Translations under genes and position numbers: made by a program | Assembly (NCBI GenBank): GCA_022827945.1 | Contig: JAJEIT010000090.1 | Location: 1-40,226 of the forward strand | DNA length: 40,226 bases | Direction of reading: 5' to 3' | Source: Dehalococcoidia bacterium | Lineage (GTDB): Bacteria; Chloroflexota; Dehalococcoidia; Tepidiformales; Tepidiformaceae | Shown here: positions 4,259 through 36,758 of the stretch, in pieces | Numbering within the stretch: position 1 is the stretch's first letter | Layout of the letters: every line of letters starts with the position of its first letter | Notes under the pieces: model-generated | What the model saw: only the letters and a program-made list of their open reading frames with translations | Told to the model about the DNA's origin: nothing | Databases searched by the model: none

Positions 4259-5728
4259 CTACAGGTTGTGTCCCCAAGAGCGGAGGATGCGCGTGAGGTG
4301 CCCTTCGAGCCAGACCCGAAAGTTGGCTGCAATGGCCTCAAGGGCTTCGTTGTCCGAGGGCTGGAGGTCAAAGCGAAACGGGTCGTTGGCGGTTGCGGTG
4401 CTCTCCCACGCCCCGTCACTGCGGGGTCTCGCGAGGAGGAGTTCCGAGGCCATATACCGGCGACGCTGGTTCCCCGCGGGGTGCAGCACGACGAACAGCC
4501 GTACGTCCAAAGCCGGGCGCGCGGGCAATCCTAGTCGCAGGGAGGTCCAGCGCGACGGGCGCTCCGCCTCAACGTGTCCGTAGCTCCCAACAACCTGCAG
4601 GATCTGCGCGGGCAGGGCAGCCTCGGTGAACTTGCCACTGGTGACTGAGGCCGAGACCACCACACCTTGAGCTTCGAACGCTCGTTGAGTCTCCGCTGCG
4701 ACTTCCTCGAATCGCACTGATGCCACGCGCACCAATTCGTCCAGTGCGCTCTCCACCCTTGCCGTCGTGGCATCTTGACTCTGACGCGCGGCGGTAGCTG
4801 CAGCCTCAATCGCTTTCACTGATTCCTCTCCCCGGAGCTCGCGGATGACCTTGAGGGACTCCTGGAGATCGGACCGCTGAATGTTCGCAAAGAGGTCGAC
4901 GAGTGGCGTGAGATCGCCCCGGTCAGCCGATTCCAGTGCAGCAATGTAGCGCTCACGATGTTCCTCGTCGCGAACGACGAGCACGAGATAGCCCTCCTTC
5001 AGGAAGACCATCCCGGTCAGGGCACGAGCAACACGACCGTTGCCATCCTGGAAGGGGTGGATCTGCGCGAAGCGGTGGTGGAGCCAGGCGGCTTCAACCT
5101 CGGGGCAGACATCCAGAGCCTCGTGTCGCGCTCGCCACGCGAGCAGCCGTTCAATCTCCCCCTGAACCTGCTCCGGGGGACAGTACTCGTGCATGGTCCC
5201 GTCCGGCCGGCGCGGGTTGTTCGGCTGCAGCTTCCACTCGCCCTTGCGCAAGGGGACCCTGACGACCTTGCCGAACTGATTCTCCGCTTCGCATGTCTCC
5301 TGGCTCAGCGTCAGGCGCTGTTGGAGCTCCTTGATGGCGAACGGCGTCAACTCGCGGTCTTCGGTTCCTATGAGGTCCATAACCATGTCGAGCGCAGCCC
5401 TCTGGTCCTGAATCATGGCCTCCGCATCAGCAGAAATGAGCTGGTCTTCATGAAACTGCGCAAGCGCTTCCATCCCGGCTTCGAGAATCTGGATCGTGAC
5501 CCCACGGTCGACGGTGTAGAGACGCTCGATGATCCCGGTTTCCACGGCCCATAGGGTGTAGAGCCGCTCCTGGAGTCGCAGCAGCTTCGTCTCGTCCTTG
5601 ATGAGCTTGCGCTCCGCCAGCCACTGGCGGTGGACGGCGTGGAGATCGGGGCGGCAGAGGTCCTGCCAGTTGTCGGGCAGGTCTGTGATCGGCTCCCACT
5701 TGTGGGCGATGGGTGGTTGCTCAGCCAT
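4259..5728 (-). CDS. Fic/DOC family protein (probable AMPylase)
   Basis: 489-residue Fic-domain protein. The active-site motif HPFQDGNGRVAR (His224 to Arg235) is intact and matches HPFx(D/E)GNGRxxR, so it is probably able to transfer AMP from ATP to a target protein. Upstream, TGIIER (64-69) partly resembles the N-terminal inhibitory motif (S/T)xxxE(G/N), with Arg in the last place. The region after about residue 285 holds an Ala/Glu-rich helical stretch and a C-terminal domain I do not recognise; many Fic proteins are shorter. The start is the ATG at 5728 with GAGGAA close upstream; an ATG ten codons earlier has a poorer site. Its base use is visibly less GC-extreme than its neighbours, suggesting transfer. 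No separate antitoxin gene adjoins it. Target unknown. Confidence 0.88.
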   Translation of the reverse strand: MAEQPPIAHKWEPITDLPDNWQDLCRPDLHAVHRQWLAERKLIKDETKLLRLQERLYTLWAVETGIIERLYTVDRGVTIQILEAGMEALAQFHEDQLISADAEAMIQDQRAALDMVMDLIGTEDRELTPFAIKELQQRLTLSQETCEAENQFGKVVRVPLRKGEWKLQPNNPRRPDGTMHEYCPPEQVQGEIERLLAWRARHEALDVCPEVEAAWLHHRFAQIHPFQDGNGRVARALTGMVFLKEGYLVLVVRDEEHRERYIAALESADRGDLTPLVDLFANIQRSDLQESLKVIRELRGEESVKAIEAAATAARQSQDATTARVESALDELVRVASVRFEEVAAETQRAFEAQGVVVSASVTSGKFTEAALPAQILQVVGSYGHVEAERPSRWTSLRLGLPARPALDVRLFVVLHPAGNQRRRYMASELLLARPRSDGAWESTATANDPFRFDLQPSDNEALEAIAANFRVWLEGHLTRILRSWGHNL

Positions 5729-5782
5729 TGATTCCTCGGTGCCAGATTCCCACCCCATGCCTGCCCGCGCAATCGGCGGGCG

Positions 5783-9872: not shown

Positions 9873-9931
9873 ATCCTACGGCGCGGCGAGTCGCGTGGGG
9901 AGCGCGCGGCGGGGGCTGTTTCGGGTAGGCT
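9873..9931. promoter_or_regulatory. Divergent promoters between hydrolase and SnoaL genes
   Basis: Minus strand TAGGAT at 9873-9878 with leader to the hydrolase; plus strand TAGGCT at 9926-9931 with a short leader carrying GCGAGGAGG before the SnoaL start. Both are preceded by G, as in other boxes here. -35 boxes are not clear. Confidence 0.4.
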
Positions 9932-9955: not shown

Positions 9956-10390
9956 ATGGGAGCACCGACGGTTGAGGACTACACCGCCCTGCGCATGGTG
10001 GCGGAGCGGTACGTGGATGCGGTGAACCGCTTCGACCCGGAGGCCTGGGGCTCGACCTGGGCGCCGGACGGGCAGTGGATCACGAGCACGACGCGGCCGG
10101 GGCGCGAGGAGGTGGTGGCCGACTGGACACGGATCATGGCGAGCATCCCGAACGTCTACATGCACGTCTATTCGGGCGTCATCGACGACGTGACGGGCGA
10201 CACGGCCACGGGACGCTGGTACATGGGCGAGTTCCTGAACCGGGAGGCGGGGCGCACGATGAACTCGCTCTGCTACTTCGATACGTACACTCGCATCGAC
10301 GGGCAGTGGTACATCCAGACGAGGCGGCTGGAGGCGCTCTACCGCGGTCCGGCGGACCTGAGCGGGGACTGGGGCAAGCTCTCGATGTGA
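9956..10390 (+). CDS. SnoaL-like / NTF2-fold protein
   Basis: 144-residue NTF2-fold protein. The pattern YVDAVNRFDPEAWGSTWAPD followed by WITSTTRPGREEVVADW is that of SnoaL_4-type proteins, where the cone-shaped fold holds a small hydrophobic ligand. Family members include polyketide cyclases, limonene-epoxide hydrolase relatives and dioxygenase small subunits; which applies is unknown. The start is the ATG at 9956 with GCGAGGAGG six nt upstream. First of three SnoaL-like genes in the window. Confidence 0.88.
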   Translation: MGAPTVEDYTALRMVAERYVDAVNRFDPEAWGSTWAPDGQWITSTTRPGREEVVADWTRIMASIPNVYMHVYSGVIDDVTGDTATGRWYMGEFLNREAGRTMNSLCYFDTYTRIDGQWYIQTRRLEALYRGPADLSGDWGKLSM

Positions 10391-10416: not shown

Positions 10417-10422
10417 TAGAAT
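10417..10422 (+). promoter_or_regulatory. Leaderless-type -10 box (TAGAAT)
   Basis: TAGAAT ends exactly 6 nt before the ATG at 10429, and there is no ribosome binding site between. This is the geometry of a promoter whose transcript starts at the start codon. Confidence 0.6.
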
Positions 10423-10428
10423 CGTCCC

Positions 10429-12246
10429 ATGGCCGAGGGGGAGCAACGCAGGGAACTCCGCCCGACGGAGGGCGCGGACGCGACCTCGCGGCTGCTCGAG
10501 GAGTTGCTGGCGGAGGGGAGGCCGGTCGCGGAGATCGCGGTGCGGCTCGGCATCAGCGTTCCCGATGCGCACGCGCGCATCAGGGGCGCGCCTCCGGGGC
10601 GGGAGCTGGAGGACGCCGGGCCGCCACTGCCACCGAGCCTCGCGCCACCGGAACAGGCGGGGAGCGGCGGCAAGCGGCGCGCTCCTCCCGCTCCGGGCGG
10701 GGTTGGCGGCGGCCCGCCGGGGAGGCGGCCGAGCGCCCCGGAGCCAGGGCGGGGCCTCTCGCGGCGGGCCTTCCTGGCGCTGGCGGCGGCGGGGGTGGCG
10801 GGGCTGGCCACGGGAGGCACGTTCCTGGCGATGCGGGGGGGCGAGGAAGAGGACACGGTCGTGCGTCCGCCGCGACCCGTCCCGGTTCCGCCCACGCTCA
10901 CGCCCGTGCCACCGGCGCTCACAGCGTTGCAGCCGGCCACGGGCATCTTCAAGGAACTGACCCTCGAGCCGGGCCAACCACTGACGGAGGAGCACGGCAT
11001 CTTCTTCCTGCGGACGCGGGGCGAGGGGGCGGGGAGCGTGACGGGCTGGCAGCTCGCCGAGCCGGGGGGCGCCGGGCCGCCCGTGTACCGGGCGGGCGCG
11101 GGCAGGCGGTTCATCGCGACCGGGGGCGCGCTCCACGAGCGGACAACGGGGCGATCCTGGACGTGGCCGGAAGATCGCCTGCGGCTGCTCGGCCTGTCCG
11201 ACTACGGAGCGCTCTTCGAGGTGATGGAAGACGGGCTGGGGCCGCACCTCACCAAGCGGGCGCGGTACGTGCTCACGAACGGGCAACTGGAGGAGCGGGC
11301 GGAGTTCGAGCTCACGGGAACGGTCCTCCCGTCCATTCCACCGTTCTTCGCCCCGGGCGGGAGGCGCGTCTTCCTGGCGCTCGAGCAGCCACAGCAGTAC
11401 CCCTCGCTGTTCATGCTGGACGGCGCCACGGGAAAGGCGTCGACCGTGTTCGCGCCCCAGCGGCAGCGGACCCTCCAGCGGATCCTGCTCCACGCGACGA
11501 CGCCGGCGAGCGACGGGGAGTCGTTCCTGCTGCCGTTCTCGTACTGGCCCACGCGGCCTCCGCTGACGCTGGGGTACGGCATCTTCGCGACCTTTGTGGC
11601 GCGTCTCGGCTGGGCAGGCGATCATCTGGGGGTGACACGCGTGCGGGTGGACCGCGCGTTCGTCTCCCCGGACGGGTCGCTGGCGGCGGGTGAACGCGTG
11701 CTGGCGGTCCCGGGGACCGAACCACCCCTCTTCGAGGAGACGAGTACGGTGCTGGTGTTCGACGGACAGACGGGGAGGAACCTCTTCCGCGTCCGCTCGG
11801 CCAGGCTCAACTACGGCGATGAGCTCGGCGGCGCTCGCTGGCTCGCCGACTCTTCGGGGGTGGTGATGCAGACGAAAATCGGAGGCAAGGTCGGATACAG
11901 CTTCGTGAGCAGGGACGGGTCGCGGCTGGAGCCGCTCCCCGAACCGCCGGGGCCATCCGAGGAGTGGTTCCGGCACCCGGACATGCGGGGCGCCGCGCCC
12001 TCGCCCGACGACCCGTCGCTGATCGCATTCGGGCGGACGGACTTGTACGACCGCGCCTCCGGCGGCTGGACGAGCATGAACCCAACGGAGGCGGCGCCGG
12101 CGCACGTTGGCCCCTGGGCCGGCGCCGGGAGCGACGAAGTGGTGCTGGCCCTTCCGCACCGGCCCCACCGCATGTTCCCCTTGCTGGCGGACCTGGACGA
12201 GACCCGCATCGAGCACAACCTGCCCTCGGAAGGTGACGATGCTTAA
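10429..12246 (+). CDS. Membrane-anchored protein: HTH-like N-terminus plus exported beta-propeller-like domain
   Basis: 605 residues in three parts. Residues 20-52 look like a helix-turn-helix (EIAVRLGISVPDAHARIRG). Residues 55-108 are a Pro/Gly-rich linker. Residues 111-135 carry a twin-arginine-like start SRRAFLALAAAG followed by a single hydrophobic helix. The remaining 470 residues are rich in beta-strand stretches and aspartate/glycine turns (FMLDGATGKAS, VLVFDGQTGRNLF, RDGSRLEPL), as in WD40/TolB-like propellers. I infer the N-terminus is cytosolic and the propeller outside the membrane, a possible one-component sensor. There is no ribosome site before the ATG, which fits the leaderless promoter. 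Its 3' end overlaps the next gene by 8 bp. I know no exact family for this combination. Confidence 0.75.
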   Translation: MAEGEQRRELRPTEGADATSRLLEELLAEGRPVAEIAVRLGISVPDAHARIRGAPPGRELEDAGPPLPPSLAPPEQAGSGGKRRAPPAPGGVGGGPPGRRPSAPEPGRGLSRRAFLALAAAGVAGLATGGTFLAMRGGEEEDTVVRPPRPVPVPPTLTPVPPALTALQPATGIFKELTLEPGQPLTEEHGIFFLRTRGEGAGSVTGWQLAEPGGAGPPVYRAGAGRRFIATGGALHERTTGRSWTWPEDRLRLLGLSDYGALFEVMEDGLGPHLTKRARYVLTNGQLEERAEFELTGTVLPSIPPFFAPGGRRVFLALEQPQQYPSLFMLDGATGKASTVFAPQRQRTLQRILLHATTPASDGESFLLPFSYWPTRPPLTLGYGIFATFVARLGWAGDHLGVTRVRVDRAFVSPDGSLAAGERVLAVPGTEPPLFEETSTVLVFDGQTGRNLFRVRSARLNYGDELGGARWLADSSGVVMQTKIGGKVGYSFVSRDGSRLEPLPEPPGPSEEWFRHPDMRGAAPSPDDPSLIAFGRTDLYDRASGGWTSMNPTEAAPAHVGPWAGAGSDEVVLALPHRPHRMFPLLADLDETRIEHNLPSEGDDA

Positions 12247-12904
12247 CGACCAACCGGCCGGCGCCCGCCGCGCGTGGCGCTGGCTGAAGCGGCGGCTGCC
12301 CTTCCTGCTGATCACCGTATCCCCGCTGGCGACGGCGCCGCTGGCCGCGCTGCTGCTGTTCACGGCGGGCGGCGAGCACGGAGCGGAAGCGCTGGGCCTG
12401 CCGGAGAACGACCTGTGCAAGTTCGACGGGTTCATCGCCCAGAAATGCTTCTACTACTTCGACTTCTGGCGGACGTGGCTGCTGCTGGCGATTCCGGGCG
12501 CGCTGAACCTGCTGGCGGCGCTCTGGTTCCTCAACCGCAACGGCTATGTGCGGGTGGCGGCGGTGGTGGCGATCGCGCTGGGGCTGGTGCGGACGCTCAT
12601 CGTGCCGGTCGCGACCGTCGCCCTCTCCCAGATCGCCGTCGTGAGCGACGGCGGCCTGTTCCTGCGGGTCGAGGTCGAGGCGACGGGCGTCGTGACCGAG
12701 ATCACCTCACCAACGGAAGGGACGGCGATCCGCCGCATCCTCACGGCGGCCTGGATAGGCGGCGCCGTGTTCTGGGGGATCACGGTGCTGGTGTGGCGGG
12801 CGTACGAGCCGCTGATGGCGCGATTCTGGCGCAACCTCGATCCGCCCGGAGGACCGCGCCTCGACGCCCCACCGCGCTGGACCGGCTTCCTGAAGCGGCG
12901 CTAG
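12239..12904 (+). CDS. YFDFW-family membrane protein, paralog A
   Basis: 221 residues with about four membrane helices (roughly 23-42, 78-98, 103-125, 175-195). Motifs shared with the next three genes: TAPLAALLLF in helix 1, YYFDFWRTWLLL before helix 2, PGALNLL, RNGYVRVAA, a DGG...LR..VE loop, and a tail ending WTGFLKRR. The start is the ATG at 12239 with GGAAGGTG close upstream, overlapping the 3' end of the propeller gene (ATGCTTAA). The overlap indicates translational coupling and a linked role. The loop between helices 1 and 2 contains two Cys (LCKFDGFIAQKC) absent from the other copies, possibly a disulfide if extracytoplasmic. Function unknown. Confidence 0.82.
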   Translation: MLNDQPAGARRAWRWLKRRLPFLLITVSPLATAPLAALLLFTAGGEHGAEALGLPENDLCKFDGFIAQKCFYYFDFWRTWLLLAIPGALNLLAALWFLNRNGYVRVAAVVAIALGLVRTLIVPVATVALSQIAVVSDGGLFLRVEVEATGVVTEITSPTEGTAIRRILTAAWIGGAVFWGITVLVWRAYEPLMARFWRNLDPPGGPRLDAPPRWTGFLKRR

Positions 12905-12935
12905 CGCCGGCCACGATCGGGGCGAGGACGCGGCG

Positions 12936-13571
12936 ATGATCGGGAGGCTGGCGCGCGAGTGGCGAAGCCGTTCCCCATTCCAGTGGCTGCTGATCACGCC
13001 GATCTTCGCCTTGCCGGTCAGCGCACTGCTCGTGTTCACCGTGGGGGGCGCGCTCGATGGACAGGCCCTGGGCCTGGTCGAGGTCGAGTGGACGCGGGAA
13101 GACGGACGGCTCGACCGGACCCACTACTTCTACTTCGACTTCTGGCTCACCTGGGGTCTGCTGACGGCGCCCGGCGCGGTGAACCTGGCGGTCGTGCGGT
13201 GGCTTTCCCACGAGCTGACGTACGTGCGGATCGCGGCGGTGCTCGCGGTCGTGCTGGCGCTGCTGCGGACGTTCGTGGCGCCGGTGGCATCGATCCTGTG
13301 GCTGACGGGGGACGTGATCAGCGACGCGGGCACCCTCCTGCGTATCCCCGTGAGCGAGGCGCGGACCTCCTCCGACCCGTCGCCGGCGTTCGCCACGTGG
13401 AGCCTGCTGATCACGGCGTGGATGGGCGGGCTGGGGATGTGGGTGCTGACGCTGGGGATCTGGCAGGCGTACGCGCCGCTCATGGACCGCTTCTTCCCTC
13501 ACCTGGCGCCGCCCCGCGAGGCGTTCCAGGGGGAGGAGGGGCGCTGGGGCGGTTTCTTCCGGCGGGGCTAG
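12936..13571 (+). CDS. YFDFW-family membrane protein, paralog B
   Basis: 211 residues, four predicted helices. Shared motifs: YFYFDFWLTWGLL, PGAVNLAVVRW, TYVRIAAVLAVVLALLRTFV, a GDVISDAGTLLRI loop, LMDRFFPHLAPPRE, and a tail WGGFFRRG. It diverges most in the loop after helix 2, where the RNGY motif of the others reads HELTY. The start is the ATG at 12936 with a GGGGCGAGGA stretch upstream; it lies 31 bp after paralog A and so is probably in the same transcript. Function unknown. Confidence 0.82.
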   Translation: MIGRLAREWRSRSPFQWLLITPIFALPVSALLVFTVGGALDGQALGLVEVEWTREDGRLDRTHYFYFDFWLTWGLLTAPGAVNLAVVRWLSHELTYVRIAAVLAVVLALLRTFVAPVASILWLTGDVISDAGTLLRIPVSEARTSSDPSPAFATWSLLITAWMGGLGMWVLTLGIWQAYAPLMDRFFPHLAPPREAFQGEEGRWGGFFRRG

Positions 13572-13576
13572 CACGA

Positions 13577-13600
13577 TTGGTGGCCGGTGGCCGGTCCCCG
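13577..13600 (+). repeat. GGTGGCC-rich intergenic repeat
   Basis: TGGTGGCCGGTGGCCGGTCCCC just after the paralog B stop. The same kind of sequence, also ending GGTCCCC, follows the LLM stop at 17153-17195. It may be a dispersed intergenic element. Confidence 0.35.
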
Positions 13601-13630
13601 CACCACAGTTCACGCATGACCTTCGCAACG

Positions 13631-13636
13631 TAGACT
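13631..13636 (+). promoter_or_regulatory. Leaderless-type promoter (TAGACT)
   Basis: TAGACT ends exactly 6 nt before the ATG of paralog C at 13643, with no ribosome site. A partial -35 box TTCACG lies at 13609-13614, 16 bp upstream. It indicates that paralog C can be transcribed apart from A and B. Confidence 0.6.
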
Positions 13637-13642
13637 CCCTGC

Positions 13643-14326
13643 ATGGCCACGACCACGACCCCCATTGCCCCCGCACGCACAGGGCCTCTTGGCGCAATCG
13701 GGAGGGCATGGGACTGGATGGGGAGGCATTCGCCACTCGCACTGCTGGTGGTGACGCCGATGGTGACGGCGCCCCTGACCGCCGTGCTCGTGTTCGGCTT
13801 CGCGCGGGAGCTCAGCGCGAGGGAGCTGGGGCTGCCCATCTGGCGAAACGAGCTGATCCCGGCCACGCTCCACTACTTCGACTTCTGGCCGACGGCATTG
13901 CTGCTGATCGGGCCGGGGGTGCTCAACCTGCTGGTCGTGTTGTGGTTCTTCCAGCGCAACGGGTATATGCGTGTGGCGGCGGCGATTGCCCTTGTGCTGG
14001 CGCTGGTGCGGACCGTGGGCGTCTTGTTCCTGTTCTTCGCGATCGCGCAGTCCGACCTGATCTTTCACGACGGGCAACTGCTGATGCGCATCGAGGTGGA
14101 GCGAACGGGTTTCCTGGCGCTCGAGCCTCGAGCGTCTCCGCGGGAGGCACTGGTTCGCCTGCCCCTGATGATGTGGTTGTTCGGCGCGTTCGCGTGGGGA
14201 CCGAGCGTCCTCGCCTGGGGGCTGTTCAACCTCGTGATGGACCGGTTCCTGCCCCACATGAAGCCGCCGCAAGGGCGGCGGTCCGGGGAAACCCGCAGCT
14301 GGGGCGCGTTCTTCGAACGGCGTTAA
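13643..14326 (+). CDS. YFDFW-family membrane protein, paralog C
   Basis: 227 residues, four predicted helices. Motifs: TAPLTAVLVFGF, LHYFDFWPTALLL, PGVLNLLVVLWFF, QRNGYMRVAAAIALVLALVRT, a QLLMRIEVERTGF loop, LVMDRFLPHMKPPQG and the tail RSWGAFFERR. It is closest to paralog D. The N-terminal extension before helix 1 is about 30 residues and starts with a Thr/Pro-rich stretch. The start ATG is 6 nt after a TAGACT box, so translation is probably leaderless. Function unknown. Confidence 0.83.
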   Translation: MATTTTPIAPARTGPLGAIGRAWDWMGRHSPLALLVVTPMVTAPLTAVLVFGFARELSARELGLPIWRNELIPATLHYFDFWPTALLLIGPGVLNLLVVLWFFQRNGYMRVAAAIALVLALVRTVGVLFLFFAIAQSDLIFHDGQLLMRIEVERTGFLALEPRASPREALVRLPLMMWLFGAFAWGPSVLAWGLFNLVMDRFLPHMKPPQGRRSGETRSWGAFFERR

Positions 14327-14363
14327 CGGGTTGAGGGAGGGTCACGCCTTCTTCCGCCATCGC

Positions 14364-14369
14364 TACACT
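14364..14369 (+). promoter_or_regulatory. -10 box (TACACT) for paralog D
   Basis: TACACT lies 56 nt before the chosen start, giving a leader of about 50 nt with a GGAGG site. A nine-codon reading frame (ATG 14400 to TGA 14429) fits in the leader and overlaps the paralog D start; its use is unproven. Confidence 0.4.
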
Positions 14370-14425
14370 CCAGCCATCGCACGACGCCATAGCACTTCGA
14401 TGCCCACGGGGCGGAGGTCTCCACG

Positions 14426-15058
14426 GTGATGGGCAGGGCCCGGCGCTGGACCGCAAGGCGCTCACCGCTGGTGGTGCTCCTGTTCACGCCCCTGGTGACG
14501 GCGCCCATCAGCGCGGTGCTCGTCTTCGGATTCAGCGAGACGATCGATGCGGGGGTGCTCGGGCTGCCTCGCTTCCGCGAGGAGGGGCCCTTCCCCGCGA
14601 CCAACTTCTACTTCGACTTCTGGCCGACCTGGCTGCTGCTCATCGGGCCGGGCTTCCTGAACCTGCTGGTGGCGCTGTGGCTCTTCCAGCGCAACGGCTA
14701 CGTGCGGGTGGCGGCGGCGCTGGCGCTCGTGGTGGCGGCGATCCGGATCTTCGTGGTGCCGGTCCTGTACTTCTCGTTCGGGCAGTCGGACATCATCAGC
14801 CACGATGGCGGACGGCTCATGCGGATGGAGGTGGAGAACACAGGCTTTCTCCTGGGCAGAGCGCCCACCCCTGAGATCGCCAGGCTGCAACTGCTCGTGA
14901 ACGTGTGGCTGCACGGCGCCTACGCGTGGGGGGCGACCATAGCGCTCGCGGGGCTGTTCAACCTCCTGATGGACCGCATCTGGCCCGGTCTCAAGCCGCC
15001 GCGGAAGCGGGAACCCGGGGAACCGAGGAGCTGGGGCGGCTTCCTCGAGGGGCGCTAG
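14426..15058 (+). CDS. YFDFW-family membrane protein, paralog D
   Basis: 210 residues, four predicted helices. Motifs: TAPISAVLVFGF, FYFDFWPTWLLL, PGFLNLLVALWLF, QRNGYVRVAAALALVVAAIR, a GGRLMRMEVENTGF loop, LLMDRIWPGLKPPRK and the tail RSWGGFLEGR. The start is GTG 14426 or the adjacent ATG 14429; GGAGG at 14413-14417 suits GTG slightly better. The gene ends in CTAG, whose palindrome is at once the TAG stop of this gene and of the convergent alcohol dehydrogenase. Function unknown. Confidence 0.83.
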   Translation: MMGRARRWTARRSPLVVLLFTPLVTAPISAVLVFGFSETIDAGVLGLPRFREEGPFPATNFYFDFWPTWLLLIGPGFLNLLVALWLFQRNGYVRVAAALALVVAAIRIFVVPVLYFSFGQSDIISHDGGRLMRMEVENTGFLLGRAPTPEIARLQLLVNVWLHGAYAWGATIALAGLFNLLMDRIWPGLKPPRKREPGEPRSWGGFLEGR

Positions 15059-17152: not shown

Positions 17153-17280
17153 CGGCTGGTGGTCGGTGGCCGGTGATCGGTGGTCGGTCCCCACTCCGCC
17201 CCGTGAGTGAGCGGAGGGAGGCTTGCCGGGCTTGCCAGCCGGCAGCCCGCGGTCACCAGGCACTAGCCACTAGCCACTCG
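17153..17280. repeat. Repeat-rich convergent intergenic region
   Basis: After the LLM stop, GGTGGTC/GGTGGCC/GGTGATC heptads run to about 17192. At 17261-17280 the opposite strand has the related AGTGGCTAGTGGCTAGTG, reaching into the 3' end of the ABM gene. The two halves are loosely inverted, with a small hairpin (TGCCGG/CCGGCA) between. It could act as a bidirectional transcription end. It is not a CRISPR array: units are too short and there are no spacers. Confidence 0.5.
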
Positions 17281-19068: not shown

Positions 19069-19470
19069 TCACTTCGCCGTGCTGGCGTAGTGAAGGACCG
19101 CGCTGGCGAGCAGGCCTGAGCGGGATTCGCCCTCGCGGGCGGCGACCTCGTCCGCGATGGCGAGAACCCGCGCGGGCATGGTGACGTTGATGCGAACGGC
19201 CTTGCCCGAGAGTTTCGCCAGGTCGACCTCGACCAGCGCCCAGATTCCATCGGCGTAGGCCGCATCCGCCTGGTGGATCTCCAGCGGGCGCTGCTCGGGG
19301 ATTGGCTGTCCCTCCATGAGCAGGGTCTCGATGTGGCCGGCAATCGCCTCGGGCGCCAGCTCGAGTGCTTGCTCGATGGTATCGCCCGCTGAGAAGCAGC
19401 CGGGCAGATCGGGAACGGTGACCCCGTAGCTGCTGCCCTCGTCGTGGTGAATCACGATCGGGTACCGCAT
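19069..19470 (-). CDS. hicB: HicB antitoxin
   Basis: 133-residue antitoxin of a type II HicAB module. The N-terminal half has the HicB partial RNase-H-like fold: YPIVIHHDEGSSYGVTVPDL, then PGCFSAGDTIEQAL. The C-terminal half (VRINVTMPARVLAIADEVAA, then SRSGLLASAVLHYAS) looks like a ribbon-helix-helix DNA-binding domain, so it can repress its own promoter. The start is the ATG at 19470, which shares one base with the hicA TAA stop (TAATG), with GGAGG upstream. The usual order hicA then hicB is kept. Confidence 0.92.
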   Translation of the reverse strand: MRYPIVIHHDEGSSYGVTVPDLPGCFSAGDTIEQALELAPEAIAGHIETLLMEGQPIPEQRPLEIHQADAAYADGIWALVEVDLAKLSGKAVRINVTMPARVLAIADEVAAREGESRSGLLASAVLHYASTAK

Positions 19471-19664
19471 TACCTGTCCCTCCAGTCCCAACCCGCTTGC
19501 CGAAAGATGTTACGCAGCGTGCCGGTCGGGATGTCCCTGCGCGGGTGCTGGATCGTCGTGACGCCGGCTCGGTCCGGGTGCACGAAGTTGTGGTGGCTCC
19601 CTCGCACGTTGCGGAGCATCCAGCCGTCTTGTCGCAGACGGCGGATGACCTCCCTGCTATCCAC
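19470..19664 (-). CDS. hicA: HicA mRNA interferase toxin
   Basis: 64-residue toxin with a double-stranded-RNA-binding-like fold. The catalytic His lies in RNVRGSHHNFVHP; QHPRRDIPTGTLRNIFRQAG is the conserved C-terminal helix region. It cleaves mRNA when free of HicB. The start is GTG at 19664; directly before it is a 17-bp inverted repeat that holds the -10 box TAGAAT ending 6 nt before the GTG, so translation is probably leaderless. The pair has less extreme GC than the surrounding catabolic genes, which suggests transfer. Confidence 0.92.
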   Translation of the reverse strand: MDSREVIRRLRQDGWMLRNVRGSHHNFVHPDRAGVTTIQHPRRDIPTGTLRNIFRQAGWDWRDR

Positions 19665-34005: not shown

Positions 34006-34890
34006 TCAGCTGATCAGCTTGTCGAGGTCCTCGCGCATCTTCTCCATGGCGGAGGGCACGTCGTCGTCCTGGAGGTTCCCGAGAAAGTCCTCGCGACCCA
34101 TCATGAGGCGGGTGACGCCAAGCTCTTCGAGCTGCCCGAGGGGGATGCGGGAGAGGACGGCGGTGCTGCACTGGATCTGGGGCCTGGGCTTGCCCTGCTC
34201 CTCGGCCAGGCGCTGGAGCTTCGCCGCCTCCTCGGGGAACTCCTCGACGGGAGTGAAGCGCCCGCGCAGGCTCTCGTCGAAGGTCATCGCGACGGCAGGC
34301 ATCCAGCCGTCGCAGTAGTTGACGACGCGGTTGAGGACGGTCGGGCCGGCGCCGCCGAGGATGATGGGCGGGTGCGGGTCCTGGACGGGCTTAGGCCACT
34401 GCCAGGTGGGGGGGATATCGACGAGGCGCCCGTGGTACTCGGCGACCTCGCTCGTCCAGAGGACCTTCATGGCCTCGACCTTTTCGCGCATGAGGCGGAA
34501 GCGGGTGGAGGGGTCGACGCCGTGGGCCTCCATCTCCTCGATGTTCCAGCCGGCGCCGATGCCGAAGACGACGCGCCCGTTGGAGATCTGGTCGAGGGTG
34601 GCGATCTCCTTTGCGGTGTGGATGGTGTCGCGCTGGGGGACGAGGGCGAGGCTCGTGATGACCTTGAGCTTCTCCGTGACGGCGGCGGCGGCGGCCAGCG
34701 AGACGAAGGGGTCGAACATGCTCTTGTAGCCCATGGGTGTCTCCGCGGCGAGGGGGAAGTCCGTGGCGAGGGGCATGTGCGAGTGCTCGGGCACACCGAG
34801 ACACTCGAACCCGACGCGCTCGGCCTCGCGGGCGACGTTGACGATGCTCGCGTTGTAGTGCGTAGGCGCGTAGTTCAGGCCGAATTCCAT
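34006..34890 (-). CDS. LLM-class oxidoreductase, tandem copy 3
   Basis: 294 residues, third in order of transcription. Shared with the two upstream copies: THYNAS near the N-terminus, PEHSHMPLATDFPLA, SMFDPFVSLAAAAAVTEKLK, HTAKEIATLDQISNGRVVFG, IPPTWQWPKPVQDPHPPIIL, LGGAGPTVLNRVVNYCDGWM and SRIPLGQLEELGVTRL. It is the most diverged copy, mainly after residue 255 (MMGREDFLGNLQDDDVPSAM). The start is the ATG at 34890 with CGGGAGGT upstream. Flavin/F420 enzyme; substrate unknown. Confidence 0.93.
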   Translation of the reverse strand: MEFGLNYAPTHYNASIVNVAREAERVGFECLGVPEHSHMPLATDFPLAAETPMGYKSMFDPFVSLAAAAAVTEKLKVITSLALVPQRDTIHTAKEIATLDQISNGRVVFGIGAGWNIEEMEAHGVDPSTRFRLMREKVEAMKVLWTSEVAEYHGRLVDIPPTWQWPKPVQDPHPPIILGGAGPTVLNRVVNYCDGWMPAVAMTFDESLRGRFTPVEEFPEEAAKLQRLAEEQGKPRPQIQCSTAVLSRIPLGQLEELGVTRLMMGREDFLGNLQDDDVPSAMEKMREDLDKLIS

Positions 34891-34932
34891 GGGGAACCTC
34901 CCGGTGTCTGGTGGCGGGGTGGAGGGCGGCGG

Positions 34933-35820
34933 CTAGCCGGTCAGGGCGTCGATGCGCTCGCGGGCGCGCTCGAGGGTCGGTCGGACCTCTTCGTCGGAGA
35001 CGCCGTCCGAGCCTGGACCGGCGACGTTCACGACGAGACGGGTGACGCCTATCTCCTCGAGCTGCGCCAGGGGAATGCGGCTCGTGATCTCGACTCCGCA
35101 CTGGACCTGCGGGCGGGGCTTGCCGCGCTCCTCGGCCAGGCGCTGGAGCTTCGCGACGTCGTCCGGGAACTCCTCGACGGGGGTGACGCGGCCGCGCAGG
35201 TTCTCGGTGAAGTTCAGGTTGATGGCGGGCATCCAACCGTCTCCGTAGCTCACCACGCGGTTGAGGACATTGGGACCCGCGCCGCCCACGAGGATGGGCG
35301 GGTGAGGATCCTGGACGGGCTTGGGCCACTGCCAGGTGGGGGGAACGTCGACGTGGCGGCCGTGGTATTCGGCGACCTCCTCCGTCCACAGGGTCTTGAT
35401 GGCCTCGACCTTCTCCCGCATCACGCGGAAGCGCGTCTTCGGGTCGGTGCCATGCGCCTCCATCTCCTCCTCATTCCATCCGCCCCCGATCCCGAGGACG
35501 ACGCGTCCGCCGGAGATCTGGTCGAGGGTGGCGACTTCCTTGGCGGTGTGGATCGGGTCGCGCTGGGGGATGAGGGCGATCGCGGTGCCGACCTTCAGGT
35601 TCTCCGTGACGGCGGCGGCCGCGGCCAGGGAGACGAACGGGTCGAACATGCTCTTGTAGATCATCGGCACCTCGGGGGCGAGGGGGAAGTTCGTGTCGAC
35701 CGGTATGTGCGAGTGCTCGGGAATGAACAGGGACTCGAAGCCAAGGCGCTCAGCTTCGCGGGCGACGGTGACGACGCTCGCGTTGTAGTGCGTGGGCCAG
35801 TACGTCAGGCCGAATTGCAT
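34933..35820 (-). CDS. LLM-class oxidoreductase, tandem copy 2
   Basis: 295 residues, second in order. It keeps LTYWPTHYNASVVTVAREAE, PEHSHIPVDTNFPLAPEVPM, HTAKEVATLDQISGGRVVLG, IGGGWNEEEMEAHGTDPKTR and PPTWQWPKPVQDPHPPILVG. The tail VVNVAGPGSDGVSDEEVRPT differs from copies 1 and 3. The start is the ATG at 35820 with CGGGAGGT upstream. The ribosome-site sequence is shared by all three copies, so each duplication unit included its leader. Gap to copy 3 is 42 bp. Confidence 0.93.
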   Translation of the reverse strand: MQFGLTYWPTHYNASVVTVAREAERLGFESLFIPEHSHIPVDTNFPLAPEVPMIYKSMFDPFVSLAAAAAVTENLKVGTAIALIPQRDPIHTAKEVATLDQISGGRVVLGIGGGWNEEEMEAHGTDPKTRFRVMREKVEAIKTLWTEEVAEYHGRHVDVPPTWQWPKPVQDPHPPILVGGAGPNVLNRVVSYGDGWMPAINLNFTENLRGRVTPVEEFPDDVAKLQRLAEERGKPRPQVQCGVEITSRIPLAQLEEIGVTRLVVNVAGPGSDGVSDEEVRPTLERARERIDALTG

Positions 35821-35870
35821 GGGGACCTCCCGTTGTTTCGTGGCGGTTCCCCGCCCGAGTGCGTGTAGCC

Positions 35871-36758
35871 CTAGCCCGTGAGCTGGTCGACGCGTTCGCG
35901 GGCCTGCTCGAGGGCGGGCCGGACGCCGTCATTGTCGACAGCGTCGAGACCGCCTCCGCCGACGCCCACCATGAGACGGGTGACGCCGATCTCCTCGAGC
36001 TGACCGAGGGGGATGCGGGTCAGGATTTCCGATCCGCACTGCACGTGGGGCCGGGGACGGCCGCGCTCCGCGGCCATCCGCTGCAGCTTCGCCACTTCGT
36101 CGGGGAACTCCTCGACCGGGGTGAAGCGGCCGCGCAGATCCTCGGTGAAGTTCATGTGGACGGCGGGGAGCCAGCCGTCGCAGTAGTTGACGACGCGGTT
36201 GAGGACGTTGGGGCCGGCGCCGCCCATGAGGATGGGCGGGTGGGGGTCCTGGACGGGCTTGGGCCACTGCCAGGTGGGCGGGATTTCGACGTGGCGGCCG
36301 TGGTACTCGGCCACCTCGTTCGCCCAGAGGGTCTTGATGGCCTCGACCTTCTCGCGCATCACACGGAAGCGCGTCCTTGGGTCGGTGCCGTGCGCCTCCA
36401 TCTCCTCCTCGTTCCAGCCGGCGCCGATGCCGAGGACGACGCGCCCGTTGGAGATCTGGTCGAGGGTGGCGACTTCCTTGGCGGTATGGATGGGGTCGCG
36501 CTGGGGGATGAGGGCGATGGAGGTGCCGAGCTTCAGGTTCTCCGTGACGGCCGCGGCGGCGGCGAGCGCGACGAAGGGGTCGTACATGCTCTTGTAGATC
36601 ATGGGCGTCTCGGGCGCGAGCGGGAAATCGGTCGCGAGCGGCATGTGCGAGTGCTCGGGCACGAAGAGCGACTCGAACCCGAGGCGCTCGGCCTCGCGGG
36701 CGACAACGACGGGGCTGGCGTTGTAGTGCGTCGGGGCGTAGCTCACGCCGAATTCCAC
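35871..36758 (-). CDS. LLM-class oxidoreductase, tandem copy 1
   Basis: 295 residues, first in the operon. VSYAPTHYNASPVVVAREAE, PEHSHMPLATDFPLAPETPM, HTAKEVATLDQISNGRVVLG, IGAGWNEEEMEAHGTDPRTR and the end segment LMVGVGGGGLDAVDNDGVRP. Near-identical blocks with copy 2 over residues 60-200 show recent duplication or gene conversion. The start is GTG at 36758 with CGGGAGGT upstream; the other two copies use ATG. A TAGGCT -10 box at 36810-36815 would drive the three genes. Confidence 0.93.
   Translation of the reverse strand: MEFGVSYAPTHYNASPVVVAREAERLGFESLFVPEHSHMPLATDFPLAPETPMIYKSMYDPFVALAAAAAVTENLKLGTSIALIPQRDPIHTAKEVATLDQISNGRVVLGIGAGWNEEEMEAHGTDPRTRFRVMREKVEAIKTLWANEVAEYHGRHVEIPPTWQWPKPVQDPHPPILMGGAGPNVLNRVVNYCDGWLPAVHMNFTEDLRGRFTPVEEFPDEVAKLQRMAAERGRPRPHVQCGSEILTRIPLGQLEEIGVTRLMVGVGGGGLDAVDNDGVRPALEQARERVDQLTG

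Follow-up and report, generated by a model that had tools for sequence, protein, structure and literature searches.

A genus-specific, undescribed cassette in Dehalococcoidia joins a membrane-anchored LuxR-type protein to four-helix membrane proteins

What is the role of four tandem genes for similar membrane proteins which, in a Dehalococcoidia genome, directly follow a gene for a putative membrane-anchored regulator? The question is raised by a 40,226-nt stretch of DNA (contig JAJEIT010000090.1 of assembly GCA_022827945.1; hereafter the window), which is contig 73 of a 2.85-Mb genome assembled in 99 contigs. The first gene, here termed PROP (10429–12246), encodes a 605-residue protein predicted to cross the membrane once, with its N-terminus inside. 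It is followed on the same (+) strand by the paralogs Y1 (12239–12904; 221 residues), Y2 (12936–13571; 211 residues), Y3 (13643–14326; 227 residues) and Y4 (14426–15058; 210 residues), the last being the most rapidly changing position of the cassette. In the window, the Y1 start overlaps the PROP stop by 8 nt; across the genus, this junction is a 5–8-nt overlap in five genomes and an 8–28-nt gap in three. We conclude that PROP and the Y genes form an undescribed cassette specific to one genus, which is well supported, and we propose for it a mechanism that is plausible.

The Y proteins form a coherent set. Y2–Y4 are 39–43% identical to Y1, and 43 alignment columns are invariant, including those of YFDFW, PG..NL, Y.R.AA, M.R and PP. 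An AlphaFold model of Y4, built from 30 sequences, reached a predicted local distance difference test score (pLDDT) of 83 and a predicted template modelling score of 0.76; it contains helices at residues 14–36, 65–87, 91–118 and 149–185 and strands at 58–64, 121–126 and 129–137. The predicted topology, in which four helices leave both termini in the cell and expose two acidic loops on the outer side, is supported by the loop charges, which are positive inside and negative outside. Four tandem four-helix paralogs with common motifs had been claimed in an earlier note on this DNA, and open reading frames, alignment, model and loop charges all confirm the claim. Only the Y1 group carries a cysteine pair, C60/C70, in the first outer loop; it is kept in all nine genomes of the genus and may form a disulfide. 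The Y proteins show no obvious residues for catalysis or cofactor binding.

Scans of Pfam, NCBIfam and PADLOC gave nothing significant for the Y proteins, and a sequence search of the PDB gave no match. The four proteins fall in no characterised family; placement in one would have told against the earlier note. Y is an undescribed membrane-protein family that neither Pfam nor NCBIfam recognises. A defence system was considered and dismissed, PROP and Y being without a PADLOC match. Structural searches were equally unproductive: Foldseek against the PDB returned nothing better than a meaningless E of 0.7, and a second look by structural alignment gave only low-Z helical matches, which we do not take as evidence of kinship. 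These matches bear on the idea that Y subunits assemble, like the four-helix connexins or LRRC8 proteins, into homo- or hetero-oligomeric channels that the PROP outer domain would gate. The inside position of both ends and the predicted strands in the two outer loops would suit such an arrangement, and pentameric receptor channels, connexins and LRRC8 are listed by the alignment at Z 5–6.4. However, the superpositions have root-mean-square deviations of 4–12 (about 11 for connexins and LRRC8, at Z 5–6), and according to the tool's own note such Z values lie within the chance range for helical bundles. We regard a channel as very improbable.

Y genes were found in all nine genomes of the genus, which, to judge by SB0661, IRC1 and similar isolate names, is probably associated with sponges. 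They occupy a conserved site in one to four copies: four in six genomes, that of the window included, three in G005, two in G008 and one in G004. The window's genome has no copies besides Y1–Y4, and the cassette lies at the same site in eight further species. A scan of genome contigs gave six loci, each encoding Y relatives and apparently belonging to these same genomes. The family was sampled in 17 further genera, none of which has a Y ortholog; among 343 genomes from the class there were weak relatives only, the search of 400 genomes of the phylum matched the window's own genome alone, and viral contigs gave none. Those distant relatives that were inspected are solitary and mostly four-helix; they share the proline, PG.LN and R.AA positions and lack YFDFW and the C-terminal tail. 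Loci L117, L118 and L121 encode such distant four-helix relatives. At L117 and L121 the relative is followed by a similar gene resembling pyridoxamine-oxidase-type flavin proteins, which may hint at what the wider family does.

In the Y tree, the Y1 clade spans all nine genomes, the Y2 clade eight and the Y3 clade seven, and gene order is constant. The fourth gene arises from separate branches, near Y3 in the window's genome (G000) and in G002, G003 and G006, and near Y2 in G001 and G007. PROP and the Y proteins are 55–91% identical between the window and G002, compared with 92–99% for their neighbours. The ratio of nonsynonymous to synonymous substitution rates (dN/dS) of orthologs is about 0.1–0.5 for the cassette and 0.02–0.3 for the neighbours; it reaches 0.8 for Y4, in comparisons other than those of true orthologs. 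The cassette is thus under purifying selection and changes faster than the conserved genes around it. As its genes are conserved in nine species at such dN/dS values, they encode real proteins.

At residues 18–51 of PROP (10480–10581, + strand), profile matches identify a cytoplasmic helix-turn-helix (HTH) of the LuxR/GerE type, a known DNA-binding family, in a form that is shortened in the genus. Compared with structures, its profile finds GerE at 3e-5, and also VraR and NarL; the value is 0.008 when GerE-bearing relatives are left out, and the HTH of the genus itself reaches Pfam only below threshold. The core AEIAVRLGIS is nearly invariant in the genus and alike in relatives with full-length LuxR-type domains. 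Mean pairwise identity is highest in the HTH, at 92%, and falls to 72% in the outer domain; the linker drifts at 41%, which argues against the HTH being a relic. Residues 108–132 (10750–10824, + strand) hold a motif resembling a twin-arginine translocation (Tat) signal, RGLSRRAFLAL, and a membrane helix; the match to the Pfam Tat signal is weak. The only hydrophobic segment lies after the HTH, at about residues 111–133. The twin arginine stands directly before this sole helix in all eight orthologs and in most relatives from other genera, and the variants found in the orthologs, SRRAFL, SRRALL (in one) and SRRGFL, agree with the Tat pattern R-R-x-hydrophobic-hydrophobic. As far as the sequence can tell, PROP would be exported by the Tat pathway, and its C-terminal domain probably lies outside.

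This domain spans residues 170–598 (10936–12222, + strand). In the alignment, the C-terminal 430 residues of the protein are rich in beta structure, and SPDG..A and V.DG.TG recur in them; this repetition makes a propeller plausible, and a propeller-like fold is likely. The HTH-like N-terminus and Tat-like segment seen earlier in PROP are supported; the propeller claimed with them has not been borne out, the AlphaFold model being too poor for a structural search (pLDDT 39.5) and the PD40 match weak (E 0.03, in one PROP relative only).

PROP is a member of a wider Dehalococcoidia family with a LuxR/GerE-type HTH, a linker, an internal Tat-like anchor, a beta-rich outer domain and often an SH3 domain. 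Other genera of the family also encode relatives, and so do a few genomes from the rest of the class. The relatives from other genera usually end in the SH3 domain, which PROP of the genus lacks. When the full PROP profile was run across the phylum, the matches listed outside the class fell mainly on the HTH or SH3 ends, that is, on general domains. A relative in the window's own genome (G000:C16) matches Pfam GerE at E 2e-15. This protein (L081:1584-3620) and another of the same genus (L095:8312-10462) have a clear LuxR/GerE domain and one membrane helix, and hold in addition a Pro/Thr-rich stretch, a beta-rich domain and an SH3 domain; the membrane-anchored LuxR-type family they represent merits separate study. 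There is one more match, a weaker one, on G000:C57; loci L083 and L088 from other genera of the family carry tandem PROP-like genes, and several relatives of other genera adjoin a gene that reads as a DEAD-box helicase.

How PROP and Y might act together is suggested by their arrangement. PROP stands beside Y in eight of the nine genomes, always at one site, which contradicts the possibility that the two are never neighbours in related genomes. Because of this co-occurrence, the overlapping or closely spaced PROP and Y1 genes, the conserved HTH, the SRRxFL motif and the fast change, we favour, tentatively and at somewhat less than even chance, a reading of the locus as an envelope-sensing cassette, in which a membrane-anchored regulator of one-component type works with multi-pass partners. 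PROP would be synthesized with its LuxR-type HTH staying in the cytoplasm, and the folded outer domain would cross the membrane by the Tat pathway, led by an internal signal anchor that is not cleaved. Translation of Y1 and Y2 would follow right after that of PROP, Y3 and Y4 would be started separately, and all four would sit in the membrane that holds PROP, in the topology predicted above, their two acidic loops facing outward. A signal would then be received jointly by the PROP outer domain and the Y loops, and the state of the complex would alter DNA binding by the HTH. Contact between PROP and Y, the signal itself and DNA binding by PROP are all presumed here. Going further, the locus could stand for a new class of signalling system, in which a Tat-exported LuxR-type regulator with an outer propeller uses lineage-expanding four-helix partners to diversify its input and so to build species-specific receptor sets; this we consider unlikely.

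Expression signals bear on this proposal. Promoter statistics were drawn from the window and related loci, with orthologs counted repeatedly, so that the numbers are dependent. Upstream of start codons in the genus, TANNNT hexamers are concentrated in two places, −33 to −30 and −13 to −12, and the second cluster fits leaderless genes as described in PMC3160421. A −10 box of this second kind, TAGAAT (10417–10422, + strand), lies 12 nt ahead of the PROP start codon, and it is kept, as TAGAAT or TAAAAT, in all seven genomes that have this upstream DNA. Y3 is preceded by TAGACT (13631–13636, + strand), with a box in five of the seven Y3-bearing genomes; in the two genomes without it, Y3 overlaps Y2. 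A leaderless box precedes Y4 in five of six genomes. Within the window alone the pattern is modestly above chance (3 observed, 0.9 expected), and it is conservation across species that carries the argument. Full sigma-70 consensus promoters and terminators were not found in the region. The boxes weaken the idea of a single operon, and the earlier picture of one array gives way to what looks, judging from these boxes, like a PROP-Y1-Y2 unit with separately started Y3 and Y4. A tandem repeat of the heptamer GGTGRYC lies between Y2 and Y3 (13579–13595) and again at 17158–17188; it was rejected as an operator since it is scattered over the genome, with 58 matches at ≤1 mismatch compared with 13 for a reversed control.

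Several observations weigh against an envelope-sensing role. In relatives from other genera the HTH extends as a full LuxR-type domain, the last part of which is missing from PROP of the genus, and the usual residues of the recognition helix are altered even in those relatives; DNA binding may therefore have been lost. No shared operator is evident by eye in the upstream alignments, and Y3 and Y4 mostly have promoter-like boxes of their own. No Y-like gene was found beside PROP relatives of other genera in the neighbourhoods fetched, for which reason we regard the association as a property of the genus. Finally, G004 has Y1 and lacks PROP. The nesting of the G004 gene within the Y1 clade makes it more likely that PROP and Y2 were lost there than that they were primitively absent, on a species tree that is only partly resolved. 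Adjoining this lone Y1 is a gene (L044:6126-8456) whose 777-residue product has eight predicted helices. A sensor with membrane partners, as first suggested for the locus, is still reasonable; it is now confined to one genus and has to accommodate both G004 and the relatives without Y.

If PROP no longer regulates, its N-terminal helices could be a docking handle, and the protein a Tat-anchored outer scaffold for Y proteins working in the envelope, for instance as small permease or lipid-handling subunits. The truncated HTH with its sub-threshold Pfam match agrees with this, as do the persistence of Y1 alone in G004, the multiplication of Y to as many as four copies next to a single PROP at the site, and the solitary distant Y relatives, which have no regulator. 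Against it speak the near-invariant HTH core, alike in relatives with full LuxR-type domains, and the lack of evident catalytic or cofactor residues in Y. We hold a scaffold to be possible but doubtful. It could also be that PROP and Y are functionally independent and that fast-changing membrane genes simply pile up at the site, amid conserved metabolic ones. Each occurs without the other, Y in G004 and PROP relatives elsewhere; PROP, Y3 and Y4 have separate boxes; and a different large membrane protein adjoins Y1 in G004. Yet the order is kept in eight species with PROP and Y1 overlapping or closely spaced, and the two change at similar rates within each species pair, which leaves independence rather improbable.

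Known systems offer partial parallels to an envelope-sensing cassette. FecR offers a precedent for the internal anchor: its cytoplasmic regulatory N-terminus is followed by a twin-arginine membrane segment within the chain and then by an outer domain, and it is reportedly a Tat-translocated regulator (Passmore and co-workers, 2020, as cited in PMC10924467). Unlike PROP, FecR has an anti-sigma domain and not an HTH, and Pfam scans up to E 1–10 found no FecR domain in PROP. The LuxR/GerE-type response regulators NarL, VraR and GerE share the HTH sequence family; PROP differs from them in lacking a receiver domain, in its membrane anchor and in the truncation of the HTH in the genus. Co-component cassettes such as VtrA/VtrC and ToxR/ToxS are closer: in these fast-changing loci, the gene for a membrane-anchored transcription factor is followed by an overlapping gene for a sensory partner (PMC9214523). 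PROP-Y resembles them in that a single gene encodes an HTH at the N-terminus, one membrane helix and the outer domain, in the membrane-partner gene placed directly downstream and often overlapping, and in its fast change. In contrast, the HTH of the VtrA/VtrC superfamily is CadC-like and winged, of which Pfam found no match in PROP or its relatives, and its VtrC-type partner is a single-pass periplasmic lipocalin-like protein, whereas Y is multiplied and predicted to have four helices. PROP further differs by its large outer domain, its internal Tat-like anchor and its host, one of the Chloroflexota and not an enteric bacterium. The superfamily also forms an obligate heterodimer of two outer domains (PMC9214523). 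As PROP-Y has neither the winged CadC-like HTH nor the lipocalin-like single-pass partner, we place it outside the superfamily; at most, by analogy, it may work like ToxR/ToxS or VtrA/VtrC. The transmembrane transcription regulators ToxR, CadC and TcpP (PMC10269533) likewise combine a cytoplasmic HTH, a membrane helix and an outer domain, and PROP differs from them in being paired with a four-helix family. Such regulators bind DNA and control transcription from the membrane, as PROP would on the reading favoured here. LuxR, Tat, propeller and Chloroflexi are all absent from the text of that survey. In the literature, we found no description of an HTH with a propeller, or of LuxR, Tat and propeller together. 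The remark that no named system has this layout holds for the parts, and the layout as such resembles co-component and transmembrane regulator systems (PMC9214523, PMC10269533).

Should the proposal be correct, Dehalococcoidia, whose signalling proteins are almost unstudied, would possess a family of Tat-exported, membrane-anchored LuxR-type regulators, to which one genus, probably associated with sponges, would have added its own multiplying set of membrane partners. The co-component idea would reach past enteric bacteria, and there would be a starting point for studying how uncultured symbionts perceive their environment. Should it be wrong, Y is still a coherent four-helix family unrecognised by Pfam and NCBIfam.

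The conserved upstream neighbour of PROP is a SnoaL-like gene (9956–10390, + strand; Pfam SnoaL_4, 3e-18) with its own ribosome-binding site and, from the upstream alignment, a TAGGCT −10 box (9926–9931, + strand); it is 93–99% identical among PROP-bearing genomes. Genes for a dienelactone hydrolase, a zinc alcohol dehydrogenase, luciferase-like monooxygenases and a Rieske oxygenase are further neighbours of the cassette. Three similar adjacent genes at 34009–36758 (− strand) encode luciferase-type monooxygenase-like proteins of about 295 residues, which start with MEFGLNYAPTHYNAS, MQFGLTYWPTHYNAS and VEFGVSYAPTHYNAS. A Fic-domain protein (4259–5758, − strand; PADLOC SoFic-like, E 3e-23) is 47–63% identical in relatives where it was seen, compared with about 84–98% for other neighbours. 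At 19072–19664 (− strand) lies a small pair of genes that reads as HicA/HicB-like, the first of which has a leaderless TAGAAT box.

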